Positions 42,324 through 55,680 of a stretch of 64,000 nucleotides of DNA are shown in pieces (the first letter of the stretch is position 1; every line of letters starts with the position of its first letter). The notes beneath the pieces are model-generated. The model did no database searches and was not told the origin of the DNA. It saw nothing but the letters and a program-made list of their open reading frames with translations. The stretch is from Mesotoga infera (GTDB taxonomy: Bacteria; Thermotogota; Thermotogae; Petrotogales; Kosmotogaceae). A program made the position numbers and the translations under genes. The stretch spans positions 1,240,001 through 1,304,000 of the forward strand of contig NZ_LS974202.1 in NCBI RefSeq assembly GCF_900157305.1, read 5' to 3'.

Positions 42324-43265
42324 CTAGTCACCCAAACCGGGTTTTATAATGAAGAAGTCTTCTTTCCAATAATAGATGGGGCAGATTTCTTCCGGCGAAT
42401 CAAAAAGATTGCCTGAGCCAACTACTGTACCATTGAATTCAGTTCCTCCACAACCACATTCCATACACTCGACCAGATACAAATCTAGACCATGTCCCGA
42501 GTTGTTATAGAAAACGTTGTTTATTAATGTTACCAACGAAGCATTATTCAACAGCACCCCATTTTCCATGTTCCCCGTAATCGTGTTGCCGATCAGTGAT
42601 CCGGTAGCTGTGCCATTTATCGCGGCTCCTATGGTGTTCTTATTGAAAGCGCTGTTTTTTATCGTGAATTTTACCCCGTTCGAGAGACTAACACCTGTGC
42701 CTGTTCTCTCAAAGGTCGTCCTTTCCACTTCAAGGTTTGTTTCGCCGTAGGAGTATATTCCCGCCAGATGGGTGCTAAGGTGCTCATCGTTCCCCATTCC
42801 AGCCAGAGAAGTGATGTATGAATCGACTATACTCAGTGTCATTCCGTTACCGCTGAAAGATACCCCGAATCTTCCTCCGGCGATAAGTGAGTTAACTATT
42901 TTACCGGTGGATCTGGAAACATTTACCGCAAGTCCTTCCGTCTCCACAGAGATATTTGCCAGTGAAAAATTGGAAACCCCTTTAAAGAAGACAGTCGGGC
43001 TTTCGATAGACGCGGCCTTTATAAACACTTCATCTCTTGAAGTTCCTTCTAGAGTGATGTTTTTGTTTATCGTTATGTTCTCGTTGTATATACCCGGAAG
43101 TATTTTTACTGTGTCACCCTCACTAGCGGCATCTATTGCGAGCTGAATCTTCTCGTACTGCCCAACCGACGGTCCAACAGTCAGAACTTTTCCGGCCGCT
43201 ATAAGCAGAGAAAACGTGCATAAAAAAATCGATAAAAATATCCTTCTCAATGATTTGCTCATCAT
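42324..43265 (-). CDS. Exported parallel beta-helix protein
   Basis: The protein of about 313 residues has a signal peptide (SLRRIFLSIFLCTFSLLIA) and a right-handed beta-helix with repeated N/G-rich rungs (IDAASEGDTVKILPGIYNEN; INGTATGSLIGNTITGNMEN; NNASLVTLINNVFYNNSG), similar to pectate lyase/NosD folds. A late CMECGCGG cluster stands out. ATG at 43265 is chosen because CAAGGAGTTG lies about 6 bp before it, inside the longer frame. It may bind or cleave a polysaccharide. Transcribed alone. Confidence 0.78.
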   Translation of the reverse strand: MMSKSLRRIFLSIFLCTFSLLIAAGKVLTVGPSVGQYEKIQLAIDAASEGDTVKILPGIYNENITINKNITLEGTSRDEVFIKAASIESPTVFFKGVSNFSLANISVETEGLAVNVSRSTGKIVNSLIAGGRFGVSFSGNGMTLSIVDSYITSLAGMGNDEHLSTHLAGIYSYGETNLEVERTTFERTGTGVSLSNGVKFTIKNSAFNKNTIGAAINGTATGSLIGNTITGNMENGVLLNNASLVTLINNVFYNNSGHGLDLYLVECMECGCGGTEFNGTVVGSGNLFDSPEEICPIYYWKEDFFIIKPGLGD

Positions 43266-43283
43266 GCTCCCAACTCCTTGCAT

Positions 43284-43720
43284 AAGAATTAATTATGGTG
43301 TCTCGAAAAGGAGCGAGTCAAAGTATTCAATGATGGCGCCGTTGAACTAAAACTAGAGGAGAGATCTAAAGAGATGTTACCATAAGATGCCGAGAAAAAG
43401 GAACTCACGGTGTACTATCTCTTGGTCTGGTCAACAAGCTAATAGTCTTTTCATCACCTGAGGATCGACACAAGATCTCTGGCACCGAAGATGGCAGAGA
43501 CCTGTGAAGGATTCGAGCGTACTCTTCCACAGCCCATGTGATTCCAGCCAGTTCTAAGGCCACATATTCGAGAATAACAGGCCTATACCGGTTGTTGATA
43601 TAAACGGAAAGGAGGGTCTAAGTGCAAAAAATACCGTGCGGCTAACAACTGGACCGAAAAGCTTCATTCAATGAGGCGCGAACCAATAGAGAGAATAAAT
43701 TCTATGTTTGAAATTATTTT
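43284..43720. other. Intergenic region without visible gene
   Basis: About 440 bp between the leftward beta-helix gene and the rightward marR gene. The composition is even and all frames are short. No repeat module, terminator hairpin or RNA gene was recognised. A decayed gene is possible but not identifiable by eye. Confidence 0.35.
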
Positions 43721-43772
43721 GGTTGACATTATCAACCATTTAGCGATATAATATTGGTTGACAGAATCAACT
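43721..43772 (+). promoter_or_regulatory. Promoter with two MarR-type operators
   Basis: A strong promoter is visible: TTGACA at 43723-43728, an 18-bp spacer and TATAAT at 43747-43752. Two matching dyads overlap it: GTTGACATTATCAAC at 43722-43736 covers the -35 box, and GTTGACAGAATCAAC at 43757-43771 covers the expected start point. The arms (GTTGA/TCAAC) are identical in both, 35 bp apart. This is a textbook arrangement for autorepression by the MarR protein encoded just downstream. Confidence 0.85.
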
Positions 43773-43794
43773 ATACTAAAAGGGGCAATTATGA

Positions 43795-44223
43795 ATGGAA
43801 AAGCGAATAGATGAAATACGTGATTTGATTCAGGAAATAGCCTGGCGCTTCGGAGACCATGAATTCAACGGAGAGTGCTGTGGAGGTCTGACGTTTGTAG
43901 AATTCATGGCGTTGAAAAAGATTAATGAGAGTGAATACCTGTCGATCCAGGAGGTGGGAAAAGCCTTAAATTTTACAAAGAGCGGAGCGACACGACTGGT
44001 AAACCGTTTGCAGGCGAAGAAATACATCAAGCGCGAGCGATCCAGCAAAGATGGGAGGGTTTGCTGCATCACTTTGTCGAGTGAAGGAAGAAACGCTCTG
44101 AATACAATCGCCGGGAAATATGGCGAATATCTTGAGAAAGTGCTGAAAGAGCTCGATCAAGAGCAGATAGAACTTCTGGGAAGGATACTGCAACTTCTAG
44201 CAAACATCACCAAAAGAGAATAA
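43795..44223 (+). CDS. MarR-family transcriptional regulator
   Basis: The 142-residue protein has a winged helix (LSIQEVGKALNFTKSGATRLVNRL near residue 45, then the wing RERSSKDGRVCCITLS) between dimerisation helices. Two adjacent-cysteine pairs (ECCGG near residue 29 and VCCIT near residue 84) could sense thiol-reactive metals or metalloids. It begins the rightward permease gene set and is preceded by twin operators overlapping its promoter, so it is probably an autorepressor. Confidence 0.88.
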   Translation: MEKRIDEIRDLIQEIAWRFGDHEFNGECCGGLTFVEFMALKKINESEYLSIQEVGKALNFTKSGATRLVNRLQAKKYIKRERSSKDGRVCCITLSSEGRNALNTIAGKYGEYLEKVLKELDQEQIELLGRILQLLANITKRE

Positions 44224-44269
44224 TTCGTCTAATTGGACCACAGACTATCACGGAAGAAGGCAGATATAC

Positions 44270-45160
44270 TTGAATAGTTTGGCGAATACTTTTAAATACT
44301 TTTTCACAATTCTAGCAGAGTTATCTTTGCTGTTCCTCGGCGTCAGCACGCTTGTGGCGTTGCTGCTGATGTACCTTCCCAAAGAGCGGATAAGAACCTG
44401 GATGTCCAAGAAGGGATTGTTGAGTTACTTAATAGGAGCGATTTTTGGCGCTTTAACTCCCTTCTGTGTGTGTTCAACCATCCCCGTGACTCTCGGATTG
44501 CTTGAAGCGGGGGTCCCTTTTGGTGCGGTAATGTCGTTCTTGATAGCATCTCCCCTTTTGAATCCGATCATACTCACTATGCTTGGAAGCCTCGCGGGGC
44601 TTAAGACTGCTCTGGTGTACTTCTCCATAGTATTCACGGCTGCCATCGCGTTTGGAATAATCCTTGAGAAGACCGGGGCATCAAGATACGTGAAGAATGT
44701 CCGAATAAAAGGAAAGGGAAATAGATCTGATGAAATCACAGGAAATTTCGGAACCAAAGTTAAGCTTTCTTTTATTAAAGCCTGGGAAGATTTCAGGGCG
44801 ATCTTGATTTATCTCCTAATTGGTGTGGCTATCGGGGCGATAGTTTATGAATACATACCTGAAGGTTTTGTGTTTATGTACGCCGGGCCCGCCAATCCTT
44901 TTGCCGTCCCGGTGGCGGCAGTGATCGGCATACCTCTTTATATTCGCGCGGAGACCGCCATTCCAATCGCAGTATCACTGATGCAAAAAGGTATGAGTGT
45001 CGGAGCGTCGATGGCTTTGATCATCGGTGGTGCGGGAATGGCGATACCAGAGATGAGCATGCTTGCGAGTATTTTCAAGAAAAAGTTTGTCGTGATATTT
45101 ATTGGGGTTATCTTCGCGACCGCCGTGGCTGGCGGCTATATGTTCGATATTTTGCTATAG
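44270..45160 (+). CDS. ArsP-type permease (PF03773 family)
   Basis: The 296-residue membrane protein has about eight hydrophobic segments and two copies of the family motif: TPFCVCSTIPVTLGLLEAGV near residue 64, with SFLIASPLLNPIIL after it, and GIPLYIRAETAIPIAVSLMQ in the second half. Family members include ArsP, which exports trivalent organoarsenicals, but many are uncharacterised. A CxC pair lies in the first motif. It starts at TTG after GGAAGAAGGCAG, 46 bp behind marR, so the MarR protein probably controls it. Confidence 0.82.
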   Translation: MNSLANTFKYFFTILAELSLLFLGVSTLVALLLMYLPKERIRTWMSKKGLLSYLIGAIFGALTPFCVCSTIPVTLGLLEAGVPFGAVMSFLIASPLLNPIILTMLGSLAGLKTALVYFSIVFTAAIAFGIILEKTGASRYVKNVRIKGKGNRSDEITGNFGTKVKLSFIKAWEDFRAILIYLLIGVAIGAIVYEYIPEGFVFMYAGPANPFAVPVAAVIGIPLYIRAETAIPIAVSLMQKGMSVGASMALIIGGAGMAIPEMSMLASIFKKKFVVIFIGVIFATAVAGGYMFDILL

Positions 45161-45199
45161 ATACAGTTCAGATTCGATACTGAATAGGAGGTGCTTGAA

Positions 45200-45379
45200 A
45201 TGAAAGAAGGAGACGGGAAACGAATAATTAGCGCTTTTGCGAAAATGAAAAAGAGCAAGGGCAAGTCGTGCTGTTGTGACTTTCAACTTGAGGAGATACC
45301 CGAGAAGAACGGAACGCGACCGGAGGACTCCTCTGCAGAGTCGAATTGCTGCGAAAAAAGCGGAGAGCCGGAAAAATAA
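45200..45379 (+). CDS. Cys-rich mini-protein linked to permease
   Basis: This short gene of 59 codons begins at ATG 45200, 8 bp after AGGAGG. Its product is charged and has KGKSCCCDFQLEEIPE in the middle and SNCCEKSGEPEK near the end, five cysteines in two groups. It has no membrane segment. Translation 39 bp after the permease stop and a strong terminator straight after it argue that it is a real gene. It may bind a thiophilic metal or metalloid and hand it to the permease; this is inference. Confidence 0.7.
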   Translation: MKEGDGKRIISAFAKMKKSKGKSCCCDFQLEEIPEKNGTRPEDSSAESNCCEKSGEPEK

Positions 45380-45385
45380 TAGTCG

Positions 45386-45420
45386 GGGTTTGCCGAATGC
45401 CATTCGGCAAACCCTTTTTT
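45386..45420 (+). terminator. Rho-independent terminator
   Basis: GGGTTTGCCGAATG and CATTCGGCAAACCC form a 14-bp inverted repeat with a very short centre, followed by six T. It closes the marR-permease-mini-protein transcript and also separates it from the convergent ccdA gene. Confidence 0.93.
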
Positions 45421-45427
45421 ATGAGCC

Positions 45428-46117
45428 CTAGAATCCAATATAGAACATATAGAAGCCAAGAAGAAGAATCAGCGATCCCATAACTATTTTAAGGACGTTG
45501 CTTATTCTGCCGTAATTCTTGCTTGCCGAGAGCTTTTGCACAAAGCCAATCGAAGTGCCGGCTAAAACCGCGAGAATACCATGTCCTATCGAGTACAGGA
45601 GCAGCAATAGTATTCCCCAAAGAACGCTTCCCTTTCCCGCAACTATGGCTAGCAGGACGATCAACACAGGGGTGGAACAGGGAGAAGAGAAGATTCCTGC
45701 GAGAATACCCGCCACGAATGCTCCGAAAAACCCTTTTTTGGTATTTTTAGAGATCAAGTAGCTTGATGGAATTATCTCGAAAAGGCCCCAAGTCTGCAAA
45801 GCCATGACCACCATCAAAACACCGAGGGCTATGTACCACCAGGATGTCGATGTACCGATCAGTCTTCCGGCAAGAGAGGCTGTCACACCCAGAACCGTGA
45901 ATGTTACCGCCGCGCCAATTGCAAAGACTATCGAAAGCAAAAATGCCCGCTTTGTGCTCCTCTGACCCGTGCCTCCGACATAACCGACCACGAGCGGGAT
46001 GCCTGAAAGCGCGCAGGGAGTGAGCGATGTCAGAATTCCCGCCACAAGTGCCAGCAAGGGGGCCAGCCAACCACTGCTGGCTATCAAATTCGATAGGCCT
46101 TCTAGAATACCGGTCAT
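45428..46117 (-). CDS. ccdA: CcdA/DsbD-type membrane electron carrier
   Basis: The 229-residue membrane protein with six helices contains the paired redox cysteines of the CcdA family: GILTSLTPCALSGIPLVVGY near residue 35 and GIFSSPCSTPVLIVLL near residue 147. It passes electrons from cytoplasmic thioredoxin to thiol proteins outside. Its start overlaps the stop of the upstream membrane-anchored thioredoxin by 4 bp, so the two act as a pair. Confidence 0.9.
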   Translation of the reverse strand: MTGILEGLSNLIASSGWLAPLLALVAGILTSLTPCALSGIPLVVGYVGGTGQRSTKRAFLLSIVFAIGAAVTFTVLGVTASLAGRLIGTSTSWWYIALGVLMVVMALQTWGLFEIIPSSYLISKNTKKGFFGAFVAGILAGIFSSPCSTPVLIVLLAIVAGKGSVLWGILLLLLYSIGHGILAVLAGTSIGFVQKLSASKNYGRISNVLKIVMGSLILLLGFYMFYIGF

Positions 46118-46671
46118 CTGCTTACCCCCATATCGGCCAAAATCGCTCGCATTTGTTCCTCGGTCAATCCGCCTTGGTGGGTGGTGAAAATATGTTGATT
46201 GTTTTCTTTTAAGGCGTACATCGTGAACTCAATGTCCATTTTGGCGCTGGGAACGTACGGAGTTCCATCTGAGTTTATAAGTATCTGCGTCGGTATCACC
46301 TGAACGGGGAATCCATTGGCTGCCTGTCGGTTTTTCCAAACATCTACGAATTTAATGATTGCTTTGCCACGCATTTCAGAGTTCAGAGTCTTCAGCACAG
46401 GCGCCATCTCTTTGCATGGAATACACGAATCGGCCCCGAAATCAATTATGATAGGAAGGCCGTACGCTTTTAATACATCCAGCTCGATTGAAGTCGCTTC
46501 AAGAGTGAAATTGACATCGCTGTACACCTTGTCAGAGTCATTTGGATTCGTACCAGCCGCCATATCAGACGTATCGAAATTTGAGTTGACATTCTTCATA
46601 AACCATATAGCGGCAACCGCAATCACTATACAGACTGGCACGATAATTCTAATGAGTTTTTTCTTGTTCAT
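46114..46671 (-). CDS. Membrane-anchored thioredoxin-like protein
   Basis: The 185-residue protein has an N-terminal membrane anchor (IRIIVPVCIVIAVAAIWFM) and a thioredoxin domain with IIIDFGADSCIPCKEMAPVL (CIPC near residue 82) and the cis-proline loop VQVIPTQILINSDG. It is probably kept reduced on the outer face by the CcdA partner. ATG at 46671 follows TGGAGGAAATCG. A well-formed promoter lies just upstream, so the pair need not depend on the ars operon behind it. Confidence 0.87.
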   Translation of the reverse strand: MNKKKLIRIIVPVCIVIAVAAIWFMKNVNSNFDTSDMAAGTNPNDSDKVYSDVNFTLEATSIELDVLKAYGLPIIIDFGADSCIPCKEMAPVLKTLNSEMRGKAIIKFVDVWKNRQAANGFPVQVIPTQILINSDGTPYVPSAKMDIEFTMYALKENNQHIFTTHQGGLTEEQMRAILADMGVSR

Positions 46672-46690
46672 CAAAATCGATTTCCTCCAC

Positions 46691-46719
46691 AGTATAAGTT
46701 ATTTGTTTTAAGTGATCAA
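46691..46719 (-). promoter_or_regulatory. Sigma-70-type promoter for thioredoxin-ccdA pair
   Basis: On the minus strand TTGATC (46719-46714), a 17-bp spacer and TATACT (46696-46691) form a near-consensus promoter. The start codon lies 20 bp beyond the -10 box. Confidence 0.75.
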
Positions 46720-46782
46720 AACCGGACGAAGACAAACACAAATAACGAATTAAAGATGAATTGGCGAAAAGACCGGCTATCG

Positions 46783-47469
46783 TTATCGGAGGAATATCCT
46801 CTCTATACTCAGATATATCCCCAGGATTATGAAAACAGTGCCCGTGGCAGTTCGTGCCCAGTACTCGAACTGGCTCATCCGCTTGAACATGGTGGCCACC
46901 AGCTTCGCGCTGACCGCTATTCCAAAGGCGACGATTATCACGGGCAGCCCTGTGCCGACGCCGTATATGGCCGGTATCAACAGCCTCGACTGCTCGCTGA
47001 CTGCCAGGGGAATCACGCTTCCGAAGAACAGCGCCGCCGATACCGGGCAGAAGGTCAGGGCGAAAAGCGAGCCTAAGGCGAAGGCGCCAAAAATGCCCTT
47101 GCTTTTGATCCTTTCCTGAGACCGGCTGTCCAGATTTCTGCCACGGTTTTTGAAGCTGAGCATCTCAAGCAGAAACATACCCACGATTATCATAATCGGT
47201 CCGATCAACTTGCCCATGTATTTTTGAAGGATCCTCGATAGCCATGGGGCGGCGGTCAGGCTCGATACGAGTATGGCGCCGATCACGACGTAGGTCAGGA
47301 CTCTGCCGAGCGTGTAAACTATCCCGGCGGCCATAGATTTCGCGGGACTGCCTATATTTCTACTTATGAAGGAGACGGCCGCTATATTGGTGGTGAGGGG
47401 ACAGGGGCTTATCGAGGTCAATATTCCAAACCACAGCGCCGATGCGAGAGAGAGAACGAAACCATCCAT
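46783..47469 (-). CDS. ArsG-family/CcdA-like transporter
   Basis: The 228-residue membrane protein belongs to the DsbD/CcdA superfamily branch that annotation pipelines call ArsG (aromatic arsenical efflux permease). It has SALWFGILTSISPCPLTTNI near residue 15 and FALTFCPVSAALFFGSVIPL near residue 135, the two Cys-Pro sites. It starts at the base after the arsF-like stop, so the two are coupled. In the known arsEFG cluster of Shewanella putrefaciens the three genes act together on aromatic arsenicals; this role is inferred here. Confidence 0.82.
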   Translation of the reverse strand: MDGFVLSLASALWFGILTSISPCPLTTNIAAVSFISRNIGSPAKSMAAGIVYTLGRVLTYVVIGAILVSSLTAAPWLSRILQKYMGKLIGPIMIIVGMFLLEMLSFKNRGRNLDSRSQERIKSKGIFGAFALGSLFALTFCPVSAALFFGSVIPLAVSEQSRLLIPAIYGVGTGLPVIIVAFGIAVSAKLVATMFKRMSQFEYWARTATGTVFIILGIYLSIERIFLR

Positions 47470-47955
47470 TCAGTTCACCTCCAGAAAGGAAGCTACTTCG
47501 TCCCGGACGTACTGGATGTACTCTTCCCCTTTTTCGGAAAGATCCCAGGCCTTCCAGAGCTCTTTCCATTCACCGGCTTCGTTGTTCTTGTAGCTTTGAA
47601 TCACCAGGGTGTTGTACATGATGATATACTCATCAACATAATGATAATTTTCCGGGAGATCTATATTCACCACTTGCCATCTCAGCGTACCGTCCTCTAC
47701 CCGTGAGGAGAAATAGGTCTCGAGAACCTTTTTCGCGTTAGACTCCATATCCAGACAGGTCTGGCAACGGATGGTCCCGTGGAAGTAATAGAGAGTTACA
47801 TAATCTTTTGGCAATGCCGGATCTCCAGAATCGGTCGAACCGGCTTCAGGCTTTTGAACCACAGAGCTGAGTCTTATCTCATCGTACACAAAATAGGCGA
47901 CGCTAACGACAACGAAGAGCAGTAAAGAGAATGTGGCCAGCTTCTTCAAATTCAC
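47470..47955 (-). CDS. ArsF-family membrane-anchored thioredoxin-fold protein
   Basis: The 161-residue protein has one N-terminal membrane helix (LATFSLLLFVVVSVAYFVY) and a thioredoxin-like domain with YYFHGTIRCQTCLDMESNA near residue 55, giving a CQTC motif. This H-G-T-x-R-C-x-T-C pattern is typical of ArsF proteins, which are annotated as a nitrophenyl compound nitroreductase subunit. It precedes and is coupled to the arsG-like gene. Together they may reduce and export organic arsenicals. Confidence 0.8.
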   Translation of the reverse strand: MNLKKLATFSLLLFVVVSVAYFVYDEIRLSSVVQKPEAGSTDSGDPALPKDYVTLYYFHGTIRCQTCLDMESNAKKVLETYFSSRVEDGTLRWQVVNIDLPENYHYVDEYIIMYNTLVIQSYKNNEAGEWKELWKAWDLSEKGEEYIQYVRDEVASFLEVN

Positions 47956-48028
47956 TTTTCACCCCCAGCGTGACTTTCAAAAGAGATATTCCCGTGTTTT
48001 AGATTCGTTTTCGGCTATCGCGGCATGA

Positions 48029-48799
48029 TCAGAGCGTGAACTCCATGCTGTTTGACTCGCCCGTGGATCCCATATCGTAACCTTCACCCAGCGCCAGCAC
48101 CACCGACAGCTCGGCGGGAAGACCGGCCTTGGCTATCTTCTCGATCGTCGCTTTTCGATCGTATTCAACTCTCAAAAACTCGTATGAAAGACTGCCCCGA
48201 TTTACATCGACTAACAGGTAACAGGCCCGCCAATCTCCGTCTTTCGGTCTGCCCACACTACCGTCGTTGAACAAAAGCTTCCCCTTTATCCAGCGGACCA
48301 TCGGCAAATGAGTGTGACCGTTCACTACCACATCGCTCCCGGCTTTCTCGAGAAGCCTCTCCAATCTCTCGGGGGGAGTCGTTGGTTTTACGTATTCGAG
48401 AAGATGCTCCAGCGGGCTTCCATGAACCAGAAGAAAGCTCACACCCTCATCTTCGAACTCGATCGTGTGTGGCAGTCGGCGCAGGTACTCTTTAGACGTA
48501 TCGGAAGTGTTGGCTATGGACCATTTTATAGACTCATCGCCCACACGCGTCTCCCTTCCGGGGTTGTAAGCGCAGCCGCAGCTCTCCTTTTCAAAGCCGA
48601 TGGCGTCATCGTAGTTGCCCATTATCGTTGGAATACCCAGCTCCCTTATCTTGCCGACGACCTCTTCCGGCTGCGGACCGTAACCGACGAGATCGCCAAG
48701 ACAGTAACACCTGTCGATTCCTCTTTTCTCCATATCTTCCAGCACGGCTTGGAGAGCCTCCAAATTTCCATGTATATCTGAAAAGAAGGCCAGCCTCAT
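48029..48799 (-). CDS. Calcineurin-like metallophosphoesterase in ars operon
   Basis: The 256-residue protein has all metallophosphoesterase blocks: FFSDIHGNLEAL at residue 5, YCLGDLVGYGPQPEEV near 32, MGNYDDA near 59, LLVHGSPLEHL near 123, and VVNGHTHLPMV near 160. The start overlaps arsR by 4 bp (ATGA), so it is translated with the arsenic regulator. Similar proteins occur in other ars operons, but their substrate is unknown; a phosphodiester or arseno-nucleotide role is speculative. Confidence 0.87.
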   Translation of the reverse strand: MRLAFFSDIHGNLEALQAVLEDMEKRGIDRCYCLGDLVGYGPQPEEVVGKIRELGIPTIMGNYDDAIGFEKESCGCAYNPGRETRVGDESIKWSIANTSDTSKEYLRRLPHTIEFEDEGVSFLLVHGSPLEHLLEYVKPTTPPERLERLLEKAGSDVVVNGHTHLPMVRWIKGKLLFNDGSVGRPKDGDWRACYLLVDVNRGSLSYEFLRVEYDRKATIEKIAKAGLPAELSVVLALGEGYDMGSTGESNSMEFTL

Positions 48800-49122
48800 T
48801 TTGGATCACCACATTTTTTACGTCGCTCTCTCCTGATGATTCCGTAAGTTTCCACCGCAAGTTCGATAACCTCCTCGACGAAAGAAGGGATCTCCCGCAG
48901 GCTGTAGTATCTCCATCTCCCGTCCTTCCGCACGCTGATCAGCCCCGAATCGGTCAGCGCTTTCAGGTGCCTCGAAACGGTCGGTTGTGGTGATTCGAGC
49001 AGATCTTCGAACTCACAGACGCAGAGCTCTTCGTATAGCCTTATGAGCGCGAGTATCTTCAGATTCGTCGAGTCGGAAAGGCTTTTCATGACTTCAACGA
49101 GATCGACTTCAAGGGCTTTCAA
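48796..49122 (-). CDS. arsR: ArsR-family arsenic-responsive repressor
   Basis: The 108-residue winged-helix protein carries the metalloid-binding motif ELCVCEF at residues 32-38, close to ELCVCDL of plasmid R773 ArsR, followed by the recognition helix PQPTVSRHLKALTDSGL and the wing RKDGRWRYYSL. Trivalent arsenic or antimony bound by the cysteines would release it from DNA. It overlaps acr3 upstream and the phosphoesterase downstream by 4 bp each. The 34-bp palindrome before acr3 is its likely operator. Confidence 0.92.
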   Translation of the reverse strand: MKALEVDLVEVMKSLSDSTNLKILALIRLYEELCVCEFEDLLESPQPTVSRHLKALTDSGLISVRKDGRWRYYSLREIPSFVEEVIELAVETYGIIRRERRKKCGDPK

Positions 49123-50180
49123 GACTTCGTTCCTCCCCTCGAGAATTCGAAGAGCTCTCTCTTTTTCTTCATTATAGCCACCAGCGAAAGCATAACAGGC
49201 ACTTCAACCAAAACCCCGACGACCGTGGCGAGTGCCGCGCCGGAATCCATGCCGAAGAGTATGAGGGCCACCGCTATCGAGAGTTCAAAGAAATTGGATG
49301 CCCCTATAAAAGTGGATGGGGCGGCCTCTGCGTAATCTATCTTAAAACGCTTCACGGCGAAGTAGCCTATGTAAAAGATGAGATAGGTCTGTATCATTAG
49401 TGGAAGGGCTATCAGCAATATGTGGAGAGGGTTGTCGATTATAGTTTTGCCCTGGAACATGAAGACCAGCACGAGTGTCAACAGAAGTCCGACCTTCGTG
49501 AAGGGGTCGAATTTCGGAATGAAACTTTCATTCAGGTACTTCTCCCCCTTAGACCTCGTCACCAGGCGCCGAGTAATGACCGCCAGGACCAGCGGGATAG
49601 CGACATAAAAGACGACCGACCAGAAAATCGTGGAGAATGGCACGGGAAATCCCGTGGATACGCCAATCAGAAGCTTCCCCATCGGGGCGAAGAGAAAGAG
49701 AATAAAGAGATCGTTTATGGCCACCTGAACCAGCGCGTAATTTATGTTGCCGCCGGCAAGATAAGTCCACACAAGCACCATGGCCGTGCAGGGAGCCAGT
49801 CCGAGCAGTATCATACCCGCGACATATTCATTTCCCAATCCGGTGGAAATCAGAGGGCCGAAAATCACTTTTATGAATATCCAGGAGATCAGCGCCATCG
49901 TGAACGGCTTTATCGCCCAGTTGACAATAAGCGTTACCAGCAGGGGCCTCGAGTTTTTTCGGACGTTGACGATCTCCCTGAACTCTATCTTGAGCATTAT
50001 CGGGAACATCATGAAGAGAAGAACAATAGCCACCGGAATCGACACGTTTGCTATCTGCCAGTTCCCAAGCGTATCGGCGAGCCCCGGAAGAACGTTGCCC
50101 AGCAGAGCCCCCAGGACCATCGCGGCTGCCACCCAGACCGAGAGATACTTGCTGAATACATCGAGCTTCTGTTCCGACAT
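49119..50180 (-). CDS. acr3: Acr3-family arsenite efflux transporter
   Basis: The 353-residue transporter has ten hydrophobic segments and the Acr3 core: GLAPCTAMVLVWTYLAGGN near residue 125, with the conserved cysteine, VQVAINDLFILFLFAP after it, and VVGVLVEVPVML near residue 325, with the conserved glutamate. It pumps arsenite out using the proton gradient. ATG at 50180 is chosen because GGAGGAAAAG lies just before it; the longer frame to 50201 would begin inside the operator palindrome. Confidence 0.93.
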   Translation of the reverse strand: MSEQKLDVFSKYLSVWVAAAMVLGALLGNVLPGLADTLGNWQIANVSIPVAIVLLFMMFPIMLKIEFREIVNVRKNSRPLLVTLIVNWAIKPFTMALISWIFIKVIFGPLISTGLGNEYVAGMILLGLAPCTAMVLVWTYLAGGNINYALVQVAINDLFILFLFAPMGKLLIGVSTGFPVPFSTIFWSVVFYVAIPLVLAVITRRLVTRSKGEKYLNESFIPKFDPFTKVGLLLTLVLVFMFQGKTIIDNPLHILLIALPLMIQTYLIFYIGYFAVKRFKIDYAEAAPSTFIGASNFFELSIAVALILFGMDSGAALATVVGVLVEVPVMLSLVAIMKKKRELFEFSRGGTKS

Positions 50181-50190
50181 CTTTTCCTCC

Positions 50191-50224
50191 ATCATATTCA
50201 TATATTCGAATATATGAATATGAT
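50191..50224. promoter_or_regulatory. 34-bp perfect palindrome, likely ArsR operator
   Basis: Positions 50191-50224 form a perfect inverted repeat whose left half is ATCATATTCATATATTC and whose right half is its exact complement, centred on CG at 50207/50208. It lies directly upstream of the acr3 ribosome site. AT-rich dyads with ATA/TAT steps are usual for ArsR/SmtB repressors. As RNA it would also fold into a 16-17 bp hairpin in the acr3 leader. Confidence 0.8.
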
Positions 50225-50277
50225 ATACGCCTATTGTTTTGCCTTTTTTCCACTTGTGTTAAATCTAATGATTCATA

Positions 50278-50295
50278 GTTGCACAAGTATGCAAC
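50278..50295. promoter_or_regulatory. Inverted repeat upstream of DGC-arsR operon
   Basis: GTTGCACAAGTATGCAAC has exact 6-bp arms around a 6-bp centre. CACTTGTG at 50251-50258 and CAAGTG at 50294-50299 give further related half-sites. It lies 60 bp before the DGC-domain gene and differs from the acr3 palindrome, so the second ArsR probably reads it. Confidence 0.6.
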
Positions 50296-50357
50296 AAGTG
50301 ATATTATCCTGATGGTAAAGATGAAAGCTTTCGATATGAAAAACGAGGAGGGGAACA

Positions 50358-50720
50358 ATGATGAGTATCGGTATTCTCCCTTGTCAGGGAAGCAGCAACA
50401 CAGGCATGATGACCAATAAGGTAACGCTGAATAAGGTGGATGGGAAAGAATTCAAAACGGTATGCGCTTTAGGATTACCTCTTGGGATCGAAGGAATAAT
50501 AAAGAACGCGAAGAGCAACGAAGGGTTTGTAGCGCTCAACGGCTGTCCAATAAAGTGCGCTTCGAAGGCATTGCTGAGCGTTGGCATAGATGATTTTAAG
50601 GAAATCACTGTGACCGACCTGGGAATACAAAAGAACGGAAACATGAAAGATGAGACGGGAATCGAAAAACTCAGCGATAAATTGGATGAAGTTGTTGAAA
50701 GCCTCAGGAAAATCCAATGA
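50358..50720 (+). CDS. DGC-domain putative zinc-binding protein
   Basis: The 120-residue protein resembles the DGC-domain family: IGILPCQGSSNTGMMTNK at the start, VCALGLPLGIEGI near residue 36 and LNGCPIKCASKALL near residue 54, giving four conserved cysteines. Its biochemical role is unknown; the family is annotated as zinc-binding. It starts after CGAGGAGGGG and overlaps the downstream arsR by 4 bp (ATGA), which ties it to metalloid sensing or handling. Confidence 0.8.
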   Translation: MMSIGILPCQGSSNTGMMTNKVTLNKVDGKEFKTVCALGLPLGIEGIIKNAKSNEGFVALNGCPIKCASKALLSVGIDDFKEITVTDLGIQKNGNMKDETGIEKLSDKLDEVVESLRKIQ

Positions 50721-50989
50721 AGAGAGAAGTTCTAATATATAAGGCACTTTCCTGCGAATGGAGGATCAAGTTGCTGGAAGAATTGTCCGGAACGACCAAG
50801 TGCTCCTGCGAGCTGGATCATCTCTTTCCGGTTGACAAGACAACGCTATCCCGGCACATTAAGATGCTTGTTGATTGTGGTTTGTTGAGAGAAACCAAGA
50901 ATGGCACTCGAAAAGAATTGTGCATTTCTGACGAGAGGATACTTGATGTAATTAAGCTGGTAAAAGATATAGCTTCAACCGGAGAGTGA
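50717..50989 (+). CDS. Second ArsR-family repressor
   Basis: The 90-residue winged-helix protein has KALSCEWRIKLLEELSG at the N terminus, a CSCEL metal-site motif near residue 29 and the recognition helix DKTTLSRHIKMLVDCGLL. The Cys spacing resembles the CVC site of ArsR but is preceded by TTK rather than EL, so the ligand may differ. It overlaps the DGC-domain gene and precedes three permease genes, probably repressing the whole rightward operon. Confidence 0.87.
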   Translation: MKREVLIYKALSCEWRIKLLEELSGTTKCSCELDHLFPVDKTTLSRHIKMLVDCGLLRETKNGTRKELCISDERILDVIKLVKDIASTGE

Positions 50990-50995
50990 TGATAA

Positions 50996-51475
50996 TTGTA
51001 CAGCGTTTTTATATATACTTTGACCGGTGCTCTTCTGCTAATCTCTCTCGTTGTGAGCCGTAAAAAGACGCTGCTCGCCCTGAAGAAGGCATGGAAGTCC
51101 TTCGAGAACATACTGCCTGAACTCATCGCAATTATGCTCTTCGTCGGGCTTTTAATCGCCCTGCTCGATCCCGGGACTATATCGGCGTTGCTCGGAGACA
51201 ACTCGGGGGTTCTCGGGCTCCTGATCGCCTCGGTGGTTGGATCCATAACGCTCATACCGGGCTTTGTAGCCTTCCCGATGGCCGCCATGCTTCTCAACAA
51301 CGGCGCCGGGATAACCCAGATCGCGCTGTTCATTTCAACGTTAATGATGGTGGGCGTGGTCACCTTTCCGGTCGAGAGAAAGTATTTCGGAACGAAACTC
51401 ACCGTTCTGAGAAATGCCTTCGCCTTCGCTTTCTCATTCGTGGTGGCCGGACTGATGGGGGCGATCTTGAAATGA
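50996..51475 (+). CDS. Half-size permease, first of a pair
   Basis: The 159-residue membrane protein with about four helices has the motif SITLIPGFVAFPMAAMLLNNG near residue 83, which resembles one repeat of an ArsP-type permease (P-x-x-A-x-x-L-x-x-x-G). It lacks the CxC seen in full-length members. It starts at TTG, and the stop overlaps the next half-permease by 4 bp. The two probably assemble into one transporter. Confidence 0.8.
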   Translation: MYSVFIYTLTGALLLISLVVSRKKTLLALKKAWKSFENILPELIAIMLFVGLLIALLDPGTISALLGDNSGVLGLLIASVVGSITLIPGFVAFPMAAMLLNNGAGITQIALFISTLMMVGVVTFPVERKYFGTKLTVLRNAFAFAFSFVVAGLMGAILK

Positions 51476-52005
51476 AGGGCAGAAGGTATCTCTTTCCGTT
51501 GATAGTGGCCGTCGTGGTCGCGATTTTCACGCTCGTCGATAATCAGACAGGACTTAAAGCTTTAAGCATAACCGGTTCAAGCTTTCTTGAAATGCTCTCG
51601 GTCATTCCGCCCATATTTGTGCTTCTGGGGCTTCTGGATGTCTGGGTACCGCGCGAGAAGATAATAAAACATCTGGGAGAGGAGTCGGGCTTCAAGGGCA
51701 TCGTTCTATCTTTCGTTCTCGGCGCGGCCGCGGCCGGTCCACTCTACGGCGCCTTCCCAATCGCGGCCGTCTTCATGAAGAAGGGCGTCAAGTTTTCAAA
51801 CGTTTTGATTTTCATAGGCGCCTGGTCGACGACTAAAATTCCAATGTTCATGTTCGAAATGGGCGCTCTGGGTGTTGGATTCGCCCTGCTGAGGCTGGCG
51901 ATAAACATCCCGGGCATACTCGTGATGGCCTTGCTTCTGGAGAAGATGACCGGCAAGGATCAGCGGGAAGCCATCTATATGCGAGCGAATAAACTCAGCG
52001 AATAA
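51472..52005 (+). CDS. Half-size permease, second of a pair
   Basis: The 177-residue membrane protein has AAAAGPLYGAFPIAAVFMKKG near residue 82 and FIGAWSTTKIPMFMFEMGAL after it, the matching half of an ArsP-like permease repeat. LDVWVPREKIIKHLGEESG lies on the cytoplasmic side, as in PF03773 members. It overlaps the preceding half-permease and is followed 18 bp later by a full-length permease. Confidence 0.8.
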   Translation: MKGRRYLFPLIVAVVVAIFTLVDNQTGLKALSITGSSFLEMLSVIPPIFVLLGLLDVWVPREKIIKHLGEESGFKGIVLSFVLGAAAAGPLYGAFPIAAVFMKKGVKFSNVLIFIGAWSTTKIPMFMFEMGALGVGFALLRLAINIPGILVMALLLEKMTGKDQREAIYMRANKLSE

Positions 52006-52023
52006 ATCTGGAGGTGCCCCGGA

Positions 52024-53139
52024 ATGGAAGGAAATCTTAAGAGAGAATTGACAAAATTCGGACTTTTAGCGGCGGGCTTTCTGGCTTTTTATTTCTTGCC
52101 CTTCTCGGAGAAGTACGTGCAGGAAGCCATAATCAGCGGTTTCACGATGCTCGGCTCTTATGCCAGGGAACACGTGCTTTTCTGTCTCGTTCCCGCGTTC
52201 TTCATAGCCGGCACGATAACCGTGTTCATACGCAAGGACGCGATACTCAAGCTGCTTGGACCGGGCGCTAGAAAGATAATATCATACCCGGTGGCGGCCG
52301 TGTCGGGTGGAATTCTCGCCGTCTGTTCCTGCACGATACTGCCGCTCTTCGGCGGGATATACAAGCGCGGAGCCGGCCTCGGCCCGGCCGTTGCCTTCCT
52401 CTTCAGCGGCCCGGCCATTAACGTGGCGGCCATATTTCTCACCGGCAACGCGATAGGCTGGGAAATGGCGATAATCAGGATGGTCGCCGCGTCGATTTCG
52501 GCGGTTTTCATAGGGCTAATAATGCAAAGCATCTTCAAAGAAAAAGGTTCAGGTGGCTTCGCGATGCAGGAATCGGGCGAGCAGATTTCCTGGCAGGAGG
52601 CCGTGGGCTTTCTCGCCCTGCAGATGACTTTCCTGATAGTCGGCGGCCTTAAGATAGACCCGATCGTCAAGGCTTCTATAATGATCGTTTCGGCCGTGGC
52701 GGTCTTCATCATGGCGATTCGTTTCAAGAGAGAGATGAGAAACTCCTGGATTGGCGAGACCTGGGACTTCGCCAAGAAGATACTCCCGTATCTCTTCTTC
52801 GGGGTTTTTGTGGCAGGCATAATATCCAGCGCGCTTCCTAAGAGTCTTGTAGAATCTCTTCTCGGCGGAAACAGACTTGGCTCGACTCTATTCGCTTCTG
52901 TTTTCGGTGCGGTGATGTACTTCGCGACACTAACGGAAGTTCCAATAGTCCAATCCCTAATGTCCCTCGGAATGGGAAAGGGGCCAGCTCTGGCTCTATT
53001 CCTGGCCGGCAACTCTCTCAGCCTGCCCAGCATGATAGTGATAACGAGGTTACTGGGAAGGAAGAAGGCCTTCACTTATTTCGGACTTGTGGTTGCATTT
53101 GCGACCATATGGGGATATATATACGGAAACTTAATTTAA
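52024..53139 (+). CDS. arsP: Full-length ArsP-type permease
   Basis: The 371-residue membrane protein contains both family repeats: GGILAVCSCTILPLFGGIYK near residue 97, with AFLFSGPAINVAAIFLTG after it, and FATLTEVPIVQSLMSLGMGK near residue 302, with ALFLAGNSLSLPSMIVI. The CSC pair in the first motif is the candidate site for a trivalent arsenical. It starts at ATG 7 bp after GGAGGTG. It probably exports organic arsenicals or another thiophilic compound. Confidence 0.83.
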   Translation: MEGNLKRELTKFGLLAAGFLAFYFLPFSEKYVQEAIISGFTMLGSYAREHVLFCLVPAFFIAGTITVFIRKDAILKLLGPGARKIISYPVAAVSGGILAVCSCTILPLFGGIYKRGAGLGPAVAFLFSGPAINVAAIFLTGNAIGWEMAIIRMVAASISAVFIGLIMQSIFKEKGSGGFAMQESGEQISWQEAVGFLALQMTFLIVGGLKIDPIVKASIMIVSAVAVFIMAIRFKREMRNSWIGETWDFAKKILPYLFFGVFVAGIISSALPKSLVESLLGGNRLGSTLFASVFGAVMYFATLTEVPIVQSLMSLGMGKGPALALFLAGNSLSLPSMIVITRLLGRKKAFTYFGLVVAFATIWGYIYGNLI

Positions 53140-53153
53140 TAGGAGGTTAGATC

Positions 53154-53393
53154 ATGAAGGTGGAGATTTTTGGCTCTGGTTGCCCCAGATGCAAGCAAAC
53201 GGAAAAGGTGATGAAGATGGCGGTCGAAGAGCTTGGCACGAACGCGACCGTGGAAAAAGTGACGGATATGATGGTTATGATGGAAAAGGGAATAATATCG
53301 ACCCCGGCGGTGGCGATCGACGGAGAGATAGTCCTCTCAGGGAAAATTCCTTCGCTGGAGGAAGCCAAGAAGCTCCTGAAAAACCGCCTTTGA
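53154..53393 (+). CDS. Mini-thioredoxin (glutaredoxin-like)
   Basis: The 79-residue protein has IFGSGCPRCKQTEKVMKMAV with a CPRC motif at residues 10-13 and the cis-proline segment IISTPAVAIDGEIVLSGK near residue 52. It is a redox-active disulfide protein of the kind often found beside PF03773 permeases. It starts 7 bp after AGGAGG and 14 bp after the permease. It could reduce the substrate or the permease cysteines, and is the best local candidate for an ArsE-like partner. Confidence 0.85.
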   Translation: MKVEIFGSGCPRCKQTEKVMKMAVEELGTNATVEKVTDMMVMMEKGIISTPAVAIDGEIVLSGKIPSLEEAKKLLKNRL

Positions 53394-54619: not shown

Positions 54620-55680
54620 CGTGAATGACTCCCATATTGTCATCCCGTGTCATCCCGTGTCATCCCGTAGTGCTCCTATACTGTCATCCCGGGCTCCGAC
54701 CCGGGATCTACTCCTTAGAAAACCGTGATTCTGAGTCAAGCTCAGAATGACGGGAAGGGAGGAAAGACCGCAAAAATGGGGACTGACGGGCTCCTGACTA
54801 GGAGCATGTCAGGATGACCTGAAGGGGCTGTCATCCCGTAATGATCCTATACGGGATCTCGCTCAGAAGAGCCGTCCTTCGTTGTTCGTCCCAGATCATG
54901 GACCCGTCCTTCGTGAGAGCGTTAGGAGCATTTCCTCGACATTACGCATCCAGAACGCCCCCATCCTGTCATCCCGGGCTCCGACCCGGGATCCACTCTT
55001 TAGAAAACCGTGATTCTGAGTCAAGCTCAAAATGACGGGAAGGGAGGAAAGACCGCGAAAATGGGGACTGACGGGCTCCTGACGTCTGTCCCCGTTTTTC
55101 GAAGAACGGGATCCTGACTAGGAGCATGTCAGGATGACCTGAAGGGGCTGTCATCCCGTAATGATCCTATACGGGATCTCGCTCAGAAGAGCCGTCCTTC
55201 GTTGTTCGTCCCAGATCATGGACCCGTCCTTCGTGAGAGCATTGGGAGCAATTCCTCGACATTACGCATCCAGAACGTCCCTATCCTGTCATCCCGTAAT
55301 GAACCTATACTGTCATCCCGGGCTCCGACCCGGGATCTACTCCTTAGAAAACCGTGATTCTGAGTCAAGCTCAGAATGACGAGAAGGAGGAAAGACCGCG
55401 ATAATGGGGATTGACGGGCTCCTGACGTCTGTCCCCGTTTTTCGCGAAGAACGGGCATGACATGAGGGAAGAAGAATGTGATTCTGGCTAGGAACATGCC
55501 AGAATGACGGGAAGGGAGTAAGACTGTCATCCCGTGTCATCCCGTAATGCTCTTATACGGGATCTCACTCTTCTCGCTCTTTCGAAGGACGGGTTCACGC
55601 TTCGGGACGCCGGACGATGGACGGTTCTTCTCGCTCTTCTCGCTCTCTCCAAGGACGGGTTCACGCTCCGGCCATCACTT
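54620..55680. repeat. REP-like array with tandem duplication
   Basis: About 1.06 kb of hairpin modules. A unit of about 320 bp is repeated in tandem: GAAGGGGCTGTCATCCCGTA occurs at 54821 and again at 55141. It is followed in both cases by GAAGAGCCGTCCTTCGTTG, the CATGGACCCGTCCTTCGTGA segment, the CCCGGGCTCCGACCCGGG and CTGAG hairpins and the GGGGACTGAC block. A third partial copy continues to about 55440. The copies differ at a few positions only. No real gene is present. Confidence 0.85.

Follow-up and report, generated by a model that had tools for sequence, protein, structure and literature searches.

A 64,000-nucleotide stretch of Mesotoga infera DNA (the window; contig NZ_LS974202.1, from a genome that is a single contig of 2,965,660 bases) contains an arsenic-metalloid resistance locus that appears, with a probability of about 0.6, to couple export to a DsbD-like thiol relay. 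Judged by its sequence, the locus is real and functional-looking, a composite of known type. Family scans of the window's proteins place 16 genes between 43,795 and 53,393 (Table 1). From left to right these are marR, arsP_A and a gene for a Cys-rich peptide on the plus strand; ccdA and trx, followed by arsG, arsF, a metallophosphoesterase gene, arsR1 and acr3, on the minus strand; and a divergent right-hand unit on the plus strand, dgc-arsR2-hP1-hP2-arsP_B-arsE, in which hP1 and hP2 encode half-size ArsP-like permeases.

From families, cysteines, predicted topology, operators and recurrent co-localisation, all of which are read from the sequence, we infer the substrates, the electron flow with its direction and target, and a role for DGC. 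Arsenite would leave the cell through Acr3, and related soft metalloid species, probably organoarsenicals, would leave through the ArsP-type permeases. Electrons would flow from ArsE, a cytoplasmic dithiol protein, to ArsG or CcdA, membrane proteins of the CcdA type, and from there to ArsF or Trx, thioredoxin-like proteins anchored outside the cytoplasm. The reduced ArsF or Trx would in turn reduce, on the outer side, either an arsenical or the transporter or envelope thiols that the arsenical attacks. DGC, with its four invariant cysteines, would most likely bind metalloid or hand it over in the cytoplasm. MarR, ArsR1 and ArsR2, all of which bear thiols, are predicted to control separate units.

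Profile scans place Acr3 (TIGR00832, 376.5 bits against a cut-off of 282.8), ArsG (equivalog NF040495, 286.6 against 200), ArsF (NF040494, 104.5 against 60), the ArsE-type protein (TIGR00412, 94.8 against 62, with the solved relative 1ILO/MTH895), ArsR1 (NF033788, 84 against 55) and DGC (PF08859, 75 against 27) over their curated cut-offs. Further matches are to DsbD_TM/CcdA, a membrane-anchored thioredoxin, a metallophosphoesterase and two full-length ArsP_1 permeases (PF03773; 44270-45160 and 52024-53139). The transmembrane (TM) cysteine C138 of Acr3 is present in 15 of 15 aligned proteins, and the CxC motif of ArsP_A and ArsP_B in 49 of 49. An Rfam scan of 42-57 kb returned zero RNA families. 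The curated models confirm the families that the earlier note had listed as a composite; that list left the MarR gene (43795-44223) unnamed, with its interval beginning at 43721, the first base of the MarR operator, and its split ArsP was a misreading. The single 9.7-kb island that it described is a real ars locus, made up of several transcription units, with a core common to the genus and other parts peculiar to this genome.

The locus has two full relays, ArsF-ArsG and Trx-CcdA, whose linkage recurs widely; this favours the extracytoplasmic reduction step coupled to export that had been proposed from the amount of thiol-redox machinery. ArsF and Trx are predicted to be built alike, with a single N-terminal TM segment followed by CxxC, and the ccdA start overlaps the trx stop by 4 bases. 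All 28 aligned proteins keep C23 and C141, the only two cysteines of ArsG. Profile-profile alignment (hhalign) of ArsG with CcdA gives a probability of 99.3 over 207 columns, sets C23 on CcdA C35 and leaves C141 a few residues off CcdA C147. The predicted ArsG model, built from an alignment that left out plasmid row L104, has CcdA 5VKV as its top PDB match (probability 1.00, TM-score 0.42); this match spans nearly the full protein, and the next best lies at E 0.5.

Among 40 loci with any relay gene, 23 combine ArsF with ArsG, 11 Trx with CcdA, two ArsF with Trx and CcdA, one ArsF with CcdA and one ArsF with Trx and ArsG; the other two have ArsF with neither ArsG nor CcdA (L124, where the contig ends, and L131). 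An ArsF or Trx protein is thus accompanied by ArsG in 24 of 38 loci, by CcdA in 14 and by both in none. This mutual exclusion of ArsG and CcdA speaks for their doing the same job, moving electrons outwards. The window, unlike all 40 compared loci, holds both. By sequence and predicted fold, ArsG looks more like an electron carrier than a pump, and its published permease role stands alongside this assignment. A more specific proposal, tentative and short of even odds, is that ArsG, rather than being a permease, conducts electrons through the membrane in a relay running from ArsE through ArsG to ArsF and is interchangeable with CcdA, that DGC proteins are cytoplasmic partners of the relay which bind metalloid and have gone unrecognised, and that this genome is unusual in having both relay types. 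Elsewhere, a second ArsF copy in which SYAS replaces CxxC, both cysteines having become serines, lies beside a normal copy (L127:3048-3611).

In the canonical ArsEFG assignment, ArsE and ArsF reduce nitro-aromatic arsenicals, ArsG exports the aminoaryl arsenical and CcdA-Trx is an unrelated thiol system. The NCBIfam naming of ArsF and ArsG and their scores over its cut-offs, the linkage of ArsP, Acr3 and ArsE, and the published work on ArsEFG in roxarsone and nitarsone resistance (Chen, Zhang and Rosen 2019) would all fit it. We consider this unlikely, since ArsF is predicted to be extracytoplasmic with a thioredoxin-type CxxC and had no flavoprotein family match in the family scans, and ArsG appears to keep the CcdA fold, has the CcdA cysteine pair and takes CcdA's place in operons. 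Like the arsEFG determinant (NF040494, NF040495, TIGR00412), the window has ArsE-type, ArsF and ArsG proteins over the cut-offs, with ArsP, ArsR and Acr3 nearby. It differs in carrying arsE in the divergent operon, as its congeners do, whereas arsE lies near arsF in most outside genomes, and in having Trx-CcdA, DGC and the half-permeases in addition.

Neighbourhoods outside the phylum, sampled mostly at one genome per family and counted without correction for relatedness, confirm that these genes travel together. Near ArsF (28 loci in 28 genomes) lie arsE in 27 cases, arsG and arsP in 23 each, arsR in 18, acr3 in 12 and dgc in five. The same profiles found no arsE, arsF, arsG, acr3, dgc, ccdA or trx at 20 control loci, which are half-permease loci from the phylum, and crowding by ars genes at 27 of 28 loci against 0 of 20 is not chance. 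Near DGC (34 loci in 30 genomes) lie arsE in 19, arsP in 16, trx in 13, ccdA in 12 and acr3 in eight; 19 of the 34 loci have at least two genes of the set. The recurrence of one set in many genomes means that it is no private invention of this genome. The neighbourhood comparison, which the earlier note had named as able to refute its claim, thus favours function and speaks against novelty. An unrelated genome (L179) carries a near-equivalent on one strand, arsR-arsP-hP1-hP2-arsE-dgc-trx-ccdA-acr3. With this locus, parts described in 2010 and 2019 and a cluster annotated by NCBI, the suggestion that no described system has the full set is not supported.

That cluster, on a Prevotella nigrescens plasmid (NZ_CP072340), reads arsF-arsG-thioredoxin-permease-arsC-acr3. 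It shares ArsF, ArsG, ArsE, ArsP and Acr3 with the window and has a helix-turn-helix regulator in front; unlike the window, it runs in a single direction, has arsC and is annotated without DGC or CcdA. Castillo and Saier (2010) described ars operons with CcdA, thioredoxin and redox-active disulfide protein 2 (ArsE-type), and proposed a similar logic. Their operons likewise place CcdA, thioredoxin and an MTH895/ArsE-type protein beside Acr3, ArsP and ArsR; the window differs in lacking a matched arsC, in adding ArsF-ArsG and DGC, and in its several transcription units. The presence of arsC in 7 of 8 such operons (Castillo and Saier 2010), and next to acr3 in Prevotella locus L104, would suit a scheme in which the redox genes feed a cytoplasmic arsenate reductase rather than the outside. 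This is very improbable here: family scans matched no arsC in the locus, and a cytoplasmic ArsC requires neither anchored outside thioredoxins nor CcdA.

Several points weigh against export coupled to an outward thiol relay. Castillo and Saier (2010) rated transmembrane flow less likely, because the partner ArsC is cytoplasmic. The ArsEFG work gave ArsG the name aromatic arsenical efflux permease, and the predicted ArsG model is only moderate (pLDDT 73), with the CcdA match at E = 0.0099. Furthermore, arsE sits in a different operon from arsF-arsG in the window, and half-permeases and one MarR relative occur without arsenic genes.

Comparison with nine congeners separates the core of the locus from its additions. 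The congeners share a divergent core, arsG-arsF-metallophosphoesterase-arsR-acr3 facing arsR-hP1-hP2-arsP-arsE. The right-hand genes arsR2-hP1-hP2-arsP_B-arsE are present in eight of nine; the contig of the ninth, G025, stops next to hP1. Most congeners have all or nearly all of the left half, but it is damaged or incomplete in G024, G028 and G031, and in others it is truncated at contig ends. In three congener loci (L069, L070 and L071) arsF and arsG are broken or partly missing, as is acr3 in the last two, and arsP_B-arsE is intact; this decay of one half beside an intact other indicates that the two were lost independently. The parts added in this genome are marR-arsP-'CC' peptide, ccdA-trx and dgc. 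None of these was found at the congener loci (the G026 contig begins at arsG, so that the place of the marR block lies beyond it), and dgc and marR were found nowhere in the congener genomes.

Congener loci with the core retained lack the marR-arsP-'CC' peptide and ccdA-trx units, which suggests another reading, in which separate loci lie side by side: an arsenic core and a MarR-controlled exporter for other soft metals, while CcdA-Trx would repair envelope thiols in general. The marR unit has its own promoter and terminator, the top NCBIfam match of ArsP_A, below cut-off, is the SO_0444 Cu/Zn exporter, and a MarR relative adjoins a probable heavy-metal P-type ATPase in L197. Against it, 11 unrelated loci hold a Trx-CcdA pair together with arsP, arsE or dgc, which makes the pair part of the same toolkit. 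This reading is a serious possibility, if a doubtful one.

The promoter of the marR unit is a consensus-perfect TTGACA-18-TATAAT at 43723-43752, accompanied by two exact copies of GGTTGACANNATCAAC (43721-43736 and 43756-43771) where 0.03 are expected in shuffled sequences. Both Cys pairs of MarR are kept in its two relatives. One of them (L197:7552-8800; 46% identical) lies directly upstream of a gene that looks like one for a heavy-metal P-type ATPase and is a candidate for a soft-metal-sensing MarR subfamily. For the Cys-rich peptide, the ATG at 45200 is the most likely start, giving 59 aa. The order marR-arsP-CC peptide recurs in L198, with a similar CCNVELEEIPED peptide in the same place; L198 alone among other ars operons has the CC-peptide motif.

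Less expected was the recurrence in these operons of the DGC protein, which has no described role there. Its four cysteines are invariant in 31 aligned proteins, and its fold is predicted with a mean pLDDT of 96. Comparison of the model with the PDB gave nothing below E 0.05, and comparison by sequence matched no solved structure either. No DGC was found on plasmids, and no paper tying PF08859 DGC to arsenic was found in a literature search that misses most subscription journals. That it binds metalloid or hands it over on the cytoplasmic side is a guess from its cysteines and its company. ArsR2 shares 59-61% identity with its counterparts in all congeners, and its neighbours share 91-94% with those of G026. 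This disparity suggests that the native arsR2 gave way to a dgc-arsR2 cassette, with the operator in front of it conserved; alternatively, dgc may have been lost elsewhere and arsR2 may have changed fast.

The ArsP-like proteins score under the curated cut-offs of named transporters, and elsewhere a MarR relative adjoins a probable heavy-metal P-type ATPase, so that organoarsenical specificity is a candidate property. Methylarsenite made by the organism itself was ruled out as a substrate, as no arsenite methyltransferase (ArsM) over cut-off was found in the genome. ArsP_A and ArsP_B are distant relatives of SaoE of the selenocysteine-assisted organometal (SAO) system; membership was ruled out, since they score 92.7 and 127.6 against the SaoE cut-off of 325 (NF040736), and no SAO selenoprotein family was matched. 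hP1 and hP2 depart from ArsP in their half length and lack of cysteine, and hP1 reaches 32.0 against 32.3 bits. They are intact genes, paired across the phylum, and not one ArsP split in two as had been thought: both align with one and the same half of the ArsP_1 profile, the first, which rules out a broken permease. Elsewhere in the phylum such pairs stand alone in most genera, without ars genes. The closest relatives (G054, G007, L006) lie within ars clusters, so a role for the half-permeases at this locus is possible. Read from sequence, half-size ArsP-like pairs are widespread in the phylum (L201-L220), several adjoining a Crp/FNR-like regulator.

Two inverted repeats lie where the acr3 and dgc units diverge, of which the palindrome at 50191-50224 is the probable ArsR1 operator. 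The arms of GTTGCA-N6-TGCAAC at 50278-50295, the same in seven congeners, mark the probable ArsR2 operator. The metallophosphoesterase is probably a genus-level passenger of the acr3 operon, as only 43 residues are recognisable in the closest congener, G026, and it occurs in just one outside DGC locus. Adjoining the locus at 42324-43283 is an apparently exported NosD-like right-handed beta-helix protein. To the right, at 54672-55671, lies a mosaic interspersed repeat built of 36-191-bp units, with several copies next to one another; 331 bp sampled from it gave 153 matches across the genome.

Table 1. Genes and sequence elements of the locus, in window coordinates.
Feature	Position	Strand	Remarks
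MarR promoter/operator	43714..43779	+	promoter plus two GGTTGACANNATCAAC copies
MarR-family regulator	43795..44223	+	heads first operon; vicinal Cys pairs C28-C29, C90-C91
ArsP_A, 296-aa ArsP_1 (PF03773) permease	44270..45160	+	CxC motif C66, C68
59-aa Cys-rich peptide (SCCCDFQLEEIPE)	45200..45379	+	third gene of marR operon
Strong intrinsic terminator, 14-bp perfect stem	45386..45414	.	between convergent marR operon and ccdA
CcdA-type membrane electron-transfer protein	45428..46117	-	C35, C147 sole cysteines
Membrane-anchored thioredoxin (Trx)	46114..46674	-	N-terminal TM, CIPC
ArsG, CcdA-like membrane protein	46783..47469	-	C23, C141 sole cysteines
ArsF, signal-anchored thioredoxin-like	47470..47955	-	CxxC C64, C67
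YfcE-family metallophosphoesterase	48029..48799	-	
ArsR1	48796..49122	-	ELCVC metalloid-binding motif
Acr3 arsenite efflux transporter	49119..50201	-	C138 invariant
34-bp perfect palindrome ATCATATTCATATATTC/GAATATATGAATATGAT	50191..50224	.	over acr3 start
GTTGCA-N6-TGCAAC	50278..50295	.	upstream of dgc
DGC protein (PF08859)	50358..50720	+	cysteines C9, C36, C63, C67
ArsR2	50717..50989	+	KCSCEL motif
hP1, half-size ArsP-like permease	50996..51475	+	no cysteine
hP2, half-size ArsP-like permease	51472..52005	+	no cysteine; overlaps hP1 by 4 bases
ArsP_B, full-length ArsP_1 permease	52024..53139	+	CxC C101/C103, plus C54
ArsE/MTH895-type cytoplasmic mini-thioredoxin	53154..53393	+	CPRC

The locus is a further member of a widespread toolkit, and its remaining interest lies in the reinterpretation of ArsG and the link to DGC. 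If the proposed relay is correct, ArsEFG would have to be given a new mechanism, one that sends reducing power outwards and has no third pump. DGC, which is conserved, has four cysteines and lacks a confident structural match for its predicted fold, would acquire a role open to testing.

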